Positions 1,103 through 64,000 of a stretch of 64,000 nucleotides of DNA are shown in pieces; the stretch's first letter is position 1; each line of letters opens with the position of its first letter. Source of the stretch: Chionoecetes opilio (Eukaryota > Arthropoda > Malacostraca > Decapoda > Majidae); the NCBI GenBank assembly GCA_016584305.1, contig JACEEZ010002650.1:732473-796472 (forward strand), in the 5' to 3' direction. Made by a program: the position numbers and the translations under genes. The notes beneath the pieces were generated by a model that saw nothing but the letters and a program-made list of their open reading frames with translations, had not been told where the DNA came from and did no database searches.

Positions 1103-1468
1103 CCTACAAGAATTAGAAATATTTAAGGTTGGTTGAAAATATAGAGCAGCGATTCTTAACCTAGGGGGGCGTCCCATTAGGGGGGGGGGGGTGAGGCAAG
1201 AGAGAAAAAGGAAGAAGTGTCAAGTATTTAGCTACTTGAAGCTCGGCCTTTATTTTAACATGAAGAACATAACTATGCTTGAACATGAAGGGTGCGCTGC
1301 GAGGGTGAGCGTCGCCACAGAGAAGCAAGTGTGGCGGAAAACCTCTGTGGTGACGCCTTGCCGGGTTTGACTAACTCTACAGACTTTTATGCTAGAGTAT
1401 TTTTTATTATTATTACTATAAGTCTATCTTGGTAGGGTACATAAATAGGAGTACATCCTAACCCCCAG
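1103..1468. other. Intron with hAT-like terminus remnant
   Basis: At 1147 CAGCGATTCTTAACCTAGGG resembles a hAT inverted-repeat end, followed by a G run and GC-rich sequence. No matching right end or coding potential was seen. Confidence 0.3.
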
Positions 1469-1505
1469 GCCACTTGGAGTCCGGCAGTGACGTGAGGGGG
1501 TGTTC
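1469..1505 (+). pseudogene. Partial copy of exon 1 start with acceptor
   Basis: The 17 bases before 1469 and the 37 after it repeat the acceptor and first bases of exon 1 (2227) with a few changes: CCTAACCCCCAG then GCCACTTGGAGTCCGGCAGT. The copy stops after about 37 bases, so it cannot serve as a full exon. Confidence 0.85.
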
Positions 1506-1555
1506 AAGCTCCTTATATTACATTTTAGAGTTGTATTTGTTGTATTTGCTCTCCC

Positions 1556-2180
1556 ATTCTCTCTTTCTTTCTCACCTCATCTCTCTTTCTTTCTCACCCC
1601 TTCTCTCTTTCTTTCTCACCTCATCTCTCTTTCTTTCTCACCCCTTCTCTCTTTCTTTCTCACCTCATCTCTCTTTCTTTCTCACCCCTTCTCTCTTTCT
1701 TTCTCACCTCATCTCTCTTTCTTTCTCACCCCTTCTCTCTTTCTTTCTCACCGCTTCTCTCTTTCTTTCTCACCCCATCTCTCTTTCTTTCTCACCTCTT
1801 CTCTCTTTCTTTCTCACCTCATCTCTCTTTCTTTCTCACCTCATCTCTCTTTCTTTCTCACCCCTTCTCTCTTTCTTTCTCACCCCTTCTCTCTTTCTTT
1901 CTCACCCCTTCTCTCTTTCTTTCTCACCCCTTCTCTCTTTCTTTCTCACCCCTTCTCTCTTTCTTTCTCACCTCTTCTCTCTTTCTTTCTCACCTCTTCT
2001 CTCTTTCTTTCTCACCTCTTCTCTCTTTCTTTCTCACCCCTTCTCTCTTTCTTTCTCACCTCTTCTCTCTTTCTTTCTCACCCCTTCTCTCTTTCTTTCT
2101 CACCCCTTCTCTCTTTCTTTCTCACCTCTTCTCTCTTTCTTTCTCACTTCATCTCTCTTTCTTTCTCACCTCTTCTCTCA
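1556..2180. repeat. 22-bp polypyrimidine minisatellite
   Basis: About 28 copies of CACCCCTTCTCTCTTTCTTT plus two bases, all pyrimidine on the + strand apart from one or two A. It lies between the decoy acceptor (1468) and the real acceptor of exon 1 (2226). It looks like an amplified pyrimidine tract. Long open frames through it are an artefact of the composition. Confidence 0.95.
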
Positions 2181-2226
2181 TCTCCCTCTTTTCTCCTCAT
2201 AACTACGAGTGTATCCTAACCCCCAG

Positions 2227-60870
<58,644 letters not shown>

Positions 60871-63800
60871 GTGAGTTGGAACTTAATGGACTTAGAATGG
60901 AAATGGGACTTAGAACTTAATGGACTTAGAATGGCAATGAGACTTAGAACTTAATGGACTTAGAATGGCAATGAAACTTAGAACTTAATGGACTTAGAAT
61001 GGCAATGAGACTTAGAACTTAATGGACTTAGAATGGCAATGAAACTTAGAACTTAATGGACTTAGAATGGCAATGAGACTTAGAACTTAATGGACTTAGA
61101 ATGGCAATGAGACTTAGAATGGAAATGTGAGTTGGGACTTAATGGACTTAGAATGGAAATGGGACTTAGAACCTAATGGACTTAGAATGGAAATGTGAGT
61201 TGGGACTTAATGGACTTAGAATGGAAATGGGACTTAGAACCTAATGGACTTAGAATGGCAATGGGACTTAGAACTTAATGGACTTAGAATGGAAATGGGA
61301 CTTAGAACTTAATGGACTTAGAATGGCAATGGGACTTAGAACTTAATGGACTTAGAATGGCAATGGGACTTAGAACTTAATGGACTTAGAATGGAAATGG
61401 GACTTAGAACTTAATGGACTTAGAATGGCAATGGGACTTAGAACTTAATGGACTTAGAATGGCAATGGGACTTAGAACTTAATGGACTTAGAATGGAAAT
61501 GGGACTTAGAATGCAATGTGAGTTGGAGACTTAGATGGACTTAGAATGGAAATGGGACTTAGACTTAATGGACTTATGATGATTGAACTATGGACTTAGA
61601 ATGAATGGACTTAGAATTGGACTTAGATGGAACTTAGAACTTAATGGAATGTGATTGGACTAATGGACTTAGAATGGCAATGTGAGTTGGAACTTAATGG
61701 ACTTGTAGAATGGCAATGGATTGACTTAATGACTTAGAATGGCAATGTGATTGGGACTTAGAATAGGACTTAGAATGGAAATGGGACTTAGAACTTAATG
61801 GACTTAGAATTGGACTAATAATGGACTTAGAATGGCAATGTGAGTTGGAACTTAATGGACTTAGAATGGAAATGGGACTTAGAATGGCAATGTGAGATTA
61901 GGACTTAATGGACTTAGAATGGAATGGGGACTTATTAGAATACTTAATGGACTTAAGAATGGACTAATTGGGGGATTAGAATGGAATGGATTGAAATGGA
62001 CTTAATTAATGGACTTAGAATGGCAATGTGAGTTGGGACTTAATGGACTTAGAATGGAAATGGGACTTAGAACTGCTAAGTGATTGGGACTAATGGACTT
62101 AGAATGGAATGGGACTTAGAATGGCAATGTGAGTTGGAACTTAATGGACTTAGAATGGCAATTGAGTTGGGACTTAATGGACTTAGAATGAATGGATAAA
62201 TGGACTAGTTTAATGGACTTAGAATGAATGAGAACTGGACTTAGAATGGCAATGTGAGTTGGACTTAATGGACTTAGAATGGAATGTGATTGGAACTTAA
62301 TGGACTTAGAATGGAATGGGACTTAGACTTAATGACTTAGATGGAATGGACTTGAACTTAAGGACTTAGAATGGAAATGGACTAATATGGAGTGGACTTA
62401 ATGGACTTAGAATGGAAATGGGACTTAGAATGGAATGTGAGTTGGGACTTATGACTAAATGGATGGACTTAGAATGGAAATGGGACTTAGAATTAATGGA
62501 CTTAGAATGGCAATGTGAGTTGGGACTTAATGGACTTAGAATGGAAATGGGACTTAGAATGGCAATGTAGTTGGACTTAATGGACTTAGAATAGTGCAAT
62601 GTAGTTGGGACTTAATGGACTTAAGGGAATGGACTAGAATGGCAATGTGAGTTGGGACTTAATGGACTTAGAATGGAAATGGGTTGACTTAATGGACTTA
62701 GAATGGAAATTTAGATGGATGTGAACTTAATGGACTTAGAATGGCAATGTGAGTTGGGACTTAATGGACTTAGAATGAAATGGGACTTAGAATTAATGGA
62801 CTTAGAATGGCAATGTGAGTTGGACTTAATGGACTTAGAATGGAAATGGGACTTAGCTAATGGACTTAGATGCAATGTGAGTTGGGACTTAATGGACTTA
62901 AGGAATGGGACAGAATGGGACTTAGAATGGCAATGTGAGTTGGACTAATGGACTTAGAATGGCAATGTGAGTTGGGACTTAATGGACTTAGAATGGAAAT
63001 GGGACTTAGAATGGCAATGTGAGTTGGGACTTAATGGACTTAGAATGGAATGGACTTAGAATGGCAATGTGAGTTGGACTTAATGGACTTAGAATGGAAA
63101 TGGGACTTAGATGGCAATGTGAGTTGGGACTATAATGGACTTAGAATGGAAATGGGACTTAGAATGGCAATGTGAGTTGGGCTTAAGGACTTAGATGGAT
63201 GGGACTTAGAATGGCAATGGATTGGAACTTAATGGACTTAGAATAGCAATGTGAGTTGGGACTTAATGGACTTAGAATGGAATGGGACTTAGAATGGCAA
63301 TGTGAGTTGGGACTACTAATGACTTAGAATGGAATGGGTTGACTTATGGAAGAATGGCAATGTGAGTTGGGACTTAATGGACTTAGAATGGAAATGGGAC
63401 TTAGAACTTAATGGACTTAGAATGGCAATGTGAGTTGGACTTAATGGACTTAGAATGGAATGTGAGTTGGGACTTAGGACTTAAATGGGACTTAGAATGG
63501 CAATGTGAGTTGGACTTAATGGACTTAGAATGGCAATGTGACTTAGACTTAATGGACTTAGAATGGAAATGGGACTTAGAATGGCAATGTGAGTTGGGAC
63601 TTAATGGACTTAGAATGGAAATGGGACTTAGAATGGCAATGTGAGTTGGGACTTAATGGACTTAGAATGGAAATGGGACTTAGAATGGCAATGTGAGTTG
63701 GGACTTAATGGACTTAGAATGGAAATGGGACTTAGAATGGCAATGTGAGTTGGGACTTAATGGACTTAGAATGGACATGGGACTTAGAATGGCAATGTGA

Positions 63801-64000
63801 GTTGGAACTTAATGGACTTAGAATGGCAATGTGAGTTGGGACTTAATGGACTTAGAATGGAAATGGGACTTAGAACTTAATGGACTTAGAATGGCAATGT
63901 GAGTTGGGACTTAATGGACTTAGAATGGAAATGGGACTTAGAACTTAATGGACTTAGAATGGAAATGGGACTTAGAATGGCAATGTGAGTTGGGACTTAA
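60871..64000 (+). repeat. Minisatellite starting at exon 23 donor
   Basis: Composite units of about 34 and 21 bp: GTGAGTTGGGACTTAATGGA, CTTAGAATGGAAATGGGACT, TAGAATGGCAAT. The first unit begins exactly at the donor (AAAT then GTGAGTTGG), and dozens of later units carry AAT then GTGAGTTGG. 60871-61500 is dominated by units without the donor word, later parts by units with it; 61500-63500 has many small deletions. It continues past the window. Confidence 0.95.

Follow-up and report, generated by a model that had tools for sequence, protein, structure and literature searches.

Local copies of exon borders in the introns of a Chionoecetes opilio TUBGCP6 gene

How do the introns of one gene come to hold so many copies of that gene's own splice sites? 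The question is raised by a stretch of 64,000 nucleotides from Chionoecetes opilio (contig JACEEZ010002650.1, positions 732,473 to 796,472), here called the window, whose + strand carries the gene for gamma-tubulin complex component 6 (TUBGCP6; protein GCP6), a cell-division protein. Copies of its exon–intron borders lie in the adjacent introns, they are of unequal age, and duplication events that include a border are in excess in this gene. With moderate confidence, we attribute them to recurrent short local duplications that are tolerated because the outermost splice site remains functional.

Twenty exons with AG/GT borders form a single uninterrupted open frame when spliced, and this frame uses border-proximal splice sites alone. 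The Pfam families GCP6 N-terminal, GCP N-terminal and GCP C-terminal are each matched in separate exons, and the best matches for two exons are PDB chains of GCP6. The spliced product is 99% identical to C. opilio GCP6 over the half of the query covered by the annotated protein; its next-ranked relatives are orthologues from Scylla, Portunus, Eriocheir and other decapods. A further, optional exon is present in the Homarus and Eriocheir proteins shown and absent from the Scylla isoform shown. Two additional exons, at about 43275-43420 and at 43950-44107, were read by eye through a noisy stretch; tblastn backs the second only, the first resting on the reading by eye. The labels E1-E14 and E20-E23 used below are those of the first-pass annotation of this DNA once the optional exon is counted. 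The exons that concern us are the following.

2227..2360, + strand: E1 of the window, TUBGCP6 coding exon, continuous frame
3796..4034, + strand: E2, continuous frame
5303..5453, + strand: E3, continuous frame
10428..10537, + strand: E6, continuous frame
11561..11671, + strand: E7, continuous frame
14949..15061, + strand: E8, continuous frame
18958..19057, + strand: E12, continuous frame
26048-26134, + strand: optional exon of 29 codons, within QVGGEVLKERGRSIHGHASDAVIHKLLCKN, 97% identical to the orthologous peptide
43950..44107, + strand: E19 (number of the first-pass annotation), noisy sequence, tblastn match
47999..48166, + strand: E20, continuous frame
49964..50079, + strand: E21, continuous frame
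50856..50965, + strand: E22, continuous frame
60668..60870, + strand: E23, continuous frame, matches the GCP6 C-terminal region

For each border, the 60 bases to its left and the 60 to its right were scored, with the border as anchor, against at most 1.5 kb of the neighbouring intron; the reversed target and 19 shuffles served as nulls. The 42 clean borders comprise the 40 first scored and the two of the optional exon. Eleven of them score at least 140, namely the acceptors of E1, E2, E6, E7, E8, E12 and E23 and the donors of E7, E20, E21 and E23, and all 11 outscore the reversed target and the 19 shuffles. Neither border of the optional exon has a copy in its adjacent intron. The diverged copies are roughly 65-91% identical to their originals; stricter earlier scorings, now superseded, missed several of them (e.g. 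E12 acceptor, E20 donor, E23 donor). The single copies, including two that we rate as probable, are listed here.

1440..1513, + strand: E1 acceptor copy with about 45 exon bases, 64/75 identical
2512..2634, + strand: E2 acceptor copy, 93/127
3554..3670, + strand: second, diverged E2 acceptor copy, 81/118, AG lost
5757..5788, + strand: probable copy of E3 end and donor, 28/32
10055..10109, + strand: E6 acceptor copy with 29 exon bases, 44/55
10603..10682, + strand: older E7 acceptor copy, 58/85, AG lost
11407..11491, + strand: E7 acceptor copy, 66/87
14845..14877, + strand: E8 acceptor copy with 16 exon bases, 30/33
18761..18827, + strand: E12 acceptor copy with about 56 exon bases, 51/67
48300..48381, + strand: E20 donor copied with the intron bases after it, 59/82 in the core
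51129..51165, + strand: probable copy of E22 end plus GTA, heading the next array, 28/37

The copies are local. Each of 40 borders was also compared with 12 stretches lying 5 kb or more away; of these 480 comparisons, two scored 120 or above and none reached 125. Introner-like dispersed elements are similar copies across many unrelated introns; within the window, borders match adjacent and not far stretches, which is not the introner-like pattern.

Upstream acceptor copies had been claimed at first pass for eight exons; seven are recovered at 140 or above, and the eighth, at E13, scores 118 against a null maximum of 114. This border and the E4 donor (109 against 91) are left uncounted because about two of 40 borders are expected to beat their nulls by chance. 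Downstream copies, claimed for exons 19-23, hold at the threshold for E20, E21 and E23. For E22, the exon-side score is 89 against a null maximum of 88 among 61, and we rate the copy as probable because it ends exactly at the GT where an array begins; for E19, an array is visible in an error-rich stretch. The claimed exon content of the donor copies is clear in E21, with 16 exon bases per unit, while E20 holds little exon and E23 three or four bases; exon-side scores are accordingly weak at E7 (28), E20 (23) and E23 (36). Beyond these claims, the E7 donor copy is added, and we rate as probable a copy of the E3 donor, which scores 124 where its nulls reach at most 102.

Several borders adjoin, or are repeated within, tandem arrays. 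In the motifs below, a hyphen marks the splice border.

1557..2195, + strand: 22-bp pyrimidine array between the E1 copy and the real E1
11685..11982, + strand: 38-bp array starting 13 bp past the E7 donor
19059..20208, + strand: 60-bp array with a diverged first unit from +2 of the E12 donor
44108..47150, + strand: noisy array of about 71-bp units with E19 end and AACA-GTGAGTAC, unit count unreliable
50064..50478, + strand: E21 32-bp donor array, unit CTATGTGGTCAGCCAG-GTATGTGCCCTTCTGG, with 12 CAG-GTATGT including the real site
51166..54080, + strand: 28-bp array from the donor of the E22 copy
54730..55730, + strand: left part of the E23 acceptor array, units ending CTGTAG-GTGTTTC
60593..60667, + strand: E23 acceptor array, right part, directly next to the real acceptor
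60868..64000, + strand: E23 donor array, 35 x ATGTGAGTTGG including the real site, continuing beyond the window

The E21 unit consists of 16 exon and 16 intron bases. The E23 acceptor array contains 29 matches of TAGG(T/A)GTTTC, the real site included. Of the 35 E23 donor units, likewise counted with the real site, 32 share three exon bases and three share four. Four arrays of 10 to about 80 units had been described; the counts found here are 12 (E21), 29 (E23 acceptor) and 35 (E23 donor), and the E19 count is unreliable. The E12 donor had been taken as the first unit of its array: a diverged first unit is indeed found at this donor, but it starts at intron base +2, and neither the E12 nor the E7 donor array contains clear exon bases. 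The human IFI6 array reportedly starts at an exon end; defined in this way, as tandem units of exon end plus donor running from the real exon end, E21 is an IFI6-type array and the E23 donor array a marginal one. All are also ordinary intronic minisatellites (tandem units of about 10-100 bp), and 11 of the 14 arrays counted contain no border.

A separate repeat at 28296-29106 has units of about 156 bp with a donor-like ACATAG-GTGAGTTGG; no recognised exon adjoins them, and further on they pass into a 43-bp array.

Could the arrays and copies be products of the assembly? Positions 40650-47250 are rich in errors, with 33 homopolymer runs (at least 5 bases) per kb against 5 elsewhere. This stretch conceals two exons and one array, the unit count of the E19 array is therefore not to be trusted, and the lengths of other arrays may be wrong as well. 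Homopolymer density in the 500-base bins printed is low again after 47.5 kb, however, and copies as diverged as those listed above are not what an assembly produces. Furthermore, the E23 acceptor array is interrupted by a transposon.

55731..60592, - strand: hAT-like transposon splitting the E23 acceptor array, with terminal CAGGGGTCGGCAA, flanking 8 bp CTGTAGGG and CTGTAGGT, and an open reading frame on the - strand

The eight bases on either side of the element match E23 array sequence, indicating that the array predates the insertion and is itself no assembly product. We consider an artefact extremely unlikely as the general explanation. The element has a DUF4371 match below the Pfam cut-off and a zinc-finger match above it; the terminal repeat and 8-bp duplication, which we take to be hAT traits, are part of the basis for the label. 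A near-identical 107-bp tandem unit (GTCCCAAGGTTGG...) is found at 31580-32119 and at 58493-58817, the latter within the hAT-like element; given two distant sites, one of them inside the element, it is probably part of a mobile element.

The copies differ in age. Residues were compared with the orthologues P0001-P0005 and P0007, where present, in columns read from the alignments. The copied segments of E2, E6, E12 and E22 include eight residues at which the exon differs from the majority of orthologues, and at five of these the copy has the majority residue: E2-8 (Ser in the copy and in 4/5 orthologues, Pro in E2), E6-2 (Glu, 4/6; Asp in E6), E12-3 (Val, 5/6; Leu in E12), E12-13 (Gln, 4/6; His in E12) and E22-9 (Ile, 4/6; Thr in E22). 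Of the remaining three, E22-6 has the exon's residue, and E2-1 and E12-19 have a third one. Changes private to the copies include E6-9, E12-6, E12-9, E12-16 and E22-3. The E1 (Ser) and E7 (Gln) copies each carry one departing residue of the exon itself. The majority residue would be the ancestral one, judged from the alignment columns and not from a tree. Uniformity varies as well: it reaches 99% among the first eight units at E21 and 100% among ten units of the E23 acceptor array, and other stretches of the E23 arrays vary much more. Copies and units of unequal age point to a recurring process and not to a single event.

Is the association with borders beyond chance, as had been asserted from the number of minisatellite edges lying on them? 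By coverage, it is not. Among 1100 random non-exon positions, 38% have a local copy scoring at least 120, and among the 777 of these that lie outside transposable elements (TEs) 51% do, because arrays fill the introns; a per-base repeat enrichment at borders is rejected on this ground. The same figure, which exceeds the share of borders with copies, speaks for the absence of any border effect, i.e., for introns saturated with minisatellites, some of which touch borders by chance. Outside arrays, the border excess at 120 or above is likewise not significant (8/36 borders against 48/411 random positions, p 0.07). At 140 or above it is (7/36 against 30/411, p 0.02), and it lies in the acceptors (6/19, p 0.003). 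Moreover, the random matches are mostly in large arrays, each representing one event, several of those outside arrays are by position border-derived copies, and an excess appears once arrays are collapsed. An explanation by chance contact alone is thus, in our view, rather unlikely.

This excess of events was seen in a scan blind to exons. It started from 2825 positions spaced 9 bp apart between 460 and 61000 and searched 1.5 kb downstream of each at a threshold of 140; the noisy stretch, the TE blocks and the arrays were masked beforehand, and matches of low complexity were discarded. The scan found 13 duplication events outside arrays, seven of which straddle a border (1.6 expected, p 0.0003); at thresholds of 150, 160 and 180 the counts are 6/11, 6/11 and 5/10. 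These counts supersede an earlier event list (8/16) to which E7, missed by BLAST, had been added by hand. For a Monte Carlo with uniform placement and 42 borders, the 14 arrays, three of them straddling, were each collapsed to one unit; event and unit lengths, and the decision which arrays straddle a border, were entered by hand. Of the 27 founders taken together, ten contain a border where 2.3 would be expected (p 4e-5); with 40 borders the result hardly changes. A constrained exon-edge copy should stay recognisable longer than a neutral pair, and we therefore raised the detection odds of border events by factors of 1.5, 2 and 3, which gave p 0.0006, 0.004 and 0.035. Most units of the E23 donor array fail the four-base rule, so figures are also given without this doubtful array: 9/27, p 0.0002, rising to 0.002, 0.013 and 0.086 with the same odds.

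The first-pass annotation had proposed counting repeat edges within 20 bp of a border, and in this gene such edges are in excess: 4 of 13 array edges cross a border or come within 20 bp of one, where 0.4 would be expected (p 0.0004), and 6 of 13 come within 50 bp against 0.96 expected. This test used 40 borders and 13 arrays. Not included were the noisy array, the one at the start of the window, any array within a TE, and microsatellites, one of which, ATT, lies 10 bp from E9. All these p-values are optimistic, as they come from a single gene picked because it is striking. The assertion about chance thus fails when counted by coverage and holds when counted by event.

The event-level excess, and the involvement of many borders at several ages, would also follow if duplication or slippage started preferentially at exon–intron borders, perhaps triggered by transcription-linked breaks or by template switching in polypyrimidine tracts, and so lengthened introns from their ends. 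Its significance, however, fades to 0.086 at tripled odds without the E23 donor array, it comes from one gene selected for its look, and the slower decay expected of constrained exon-edge copies, compared with two neutral ones, would inflate border events; donors outside arrays have no excess. We regard a border hotspot as unlikely. A wider proposal, that borders are preferred duplication starts in the crab lineage and that introns copying their own splice sites leave a datable fossil record of ancestral exon edges, is tentative and rather doubtful; the same reservation applies to its corollary that some copies retain amino acids since lost by the exon.

The explanation that we prefer, duplication tolerated because splicing is unaffected, would operate as follows. 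Introns of TUBGCP6 would repeatedly acquire short local duplications of about 30-120 bp, a good share of which straddle a border. A duplicated acceptor would fall upstream and a duplicated donor downstream, so that the outermost original site remains: an event across a donor keeps the first donor, and one across an acceptor keeps the last acceptor. With the border-proximal original site still in use, as the open frame suggests, the mRNA would be unchanged and the change tolerated. Constraint on the exon would pin the block at the border and direct growth into the intron, and a few such duplications would later expand into minisatellites. We infer neutral tolerance, and the underlying mutations would be slippage, unequal exchange or template switching.

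Several points weigh against this account. Tolerance alone predicts no excess per duplication, yet border events are about 4.4-fold in excess, or 2.4-fold with detection odds doubled. Donors outside arrays, with 1/17 at 140, do not share in the excess, and arrays taken alone are weak (3/14, p 0.03; 2/14, p 0.13 without the E23 donor). Two old copies, the second of E2 and the older of E7, have no AG, so not all copies were kept as sites, and the use of the border-proximal site is itself deduced from the open frame. Part of the excess may be due to slower decay of border copies, the remainder perhaps to mutation favouring borders. The first-pass annotation had implied a common process, either slippage or duplication started at borders or retention of those duplications that leave a splice site intact; both alternatives fit the anatomy, and with one gene tolerance and border start are inseparable.

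Retention could also mean that arrays are kept as spare or alternative splice sites giving isoforms, as reported for human IFI6, whose repeat units are used as donors (PMC4526556). For seven of the 11 additional E21 donors no stop intervenes, and two of these seven also preserve the frame (offsets 96 and 192). The other side of this count is that the remaining 9/11 bring a frameshift or a stop; AG is missing from two old acceptor copies, and the six other aligned orthologues, the truncated C. opilio record excluded, have no insert at the E21-E22 junction. We consider such a role very unlikely.

The public C. opilio protein (P0006) reads from exon 13 into a 33-bp minisatellite at 21752-22728, where YQHKRWLQKQ occurs 29 times. 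In the spliced frame and in the other aligned orthologues, exon 13 is followed immediately by exon 14, and the public annotation therefore looks wrong. By eye, this array has no link to any border. For annotators it is a caution: a public TUBGCP6 protein includes a translated minisatellite that is intronic in the spliced frame. Among other sequences in the window, reverse transcriptase frames lie at 34266-35615 (+ strand) and 38211-39020 (- strand) in the large intron after our exon E16, and one dispersed element apparently occurs twice, at 730-1116 and 20469-20900 (CCCAAGACTCGGCA repeats, similar frames).

If the border excess were genome-wide, it would represent one route of intron lengthening, intronic fossils would record ancestral exon sequence and date duplications, and a large natural set of duplicated sites would be available for the study of how the spliceosome selects one of several identical donors, of which E21 has 12 and E23 has 35. 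Should the phenomenon be confined to this gene, the TUBGCP6 locus still presents stages that range from one diverged copy up to a large array.

Related systems differ from the crab locus in scale or in outcome. The splice-donor minisatellite of human IFI6 (6-16; Turri et al. 1995) resembles it in having tandem units that each offer a splice donor, and there they act as alternative donors (PMC4526556); in IFI6, one border is involved and two downstream units are used, whereas in the crab many borders are involved, acceptors as well as donors, and the sites are known from DNA alone. In potato RdRp, intron gain through tandem duplication across an intron–exon boundary is described, with a duplicated segment that likewise spans an exon border with its splice signals (PMC4974935); unlike there, the crab copies lie inside existing introns and no new intron is seen. 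For the same reason the locus, judged from the crab sequence, does not look like a case of AGGT-type intron gain in coding sequence, as the copies are intronic and the spliced frame is continuous. Human segmental duplications contain internal tandem repeats at exon–intron boundaries, described as minisatellites of about 30 bp that are located at borders, as in the crab, and alter gene structure (PMC2812944); they concern many recent paralogues, the crab a quarter of one gene's borders with old and young copies together. In the open-licence literature, we found no report of one gene with many borders copied into its introns. Splice-site minisatellites and border-crossing duplications are thus already known, and what appears to be new, on this comparison, is their occurrence at a quarter of the borders of one gene, at mixed ages.

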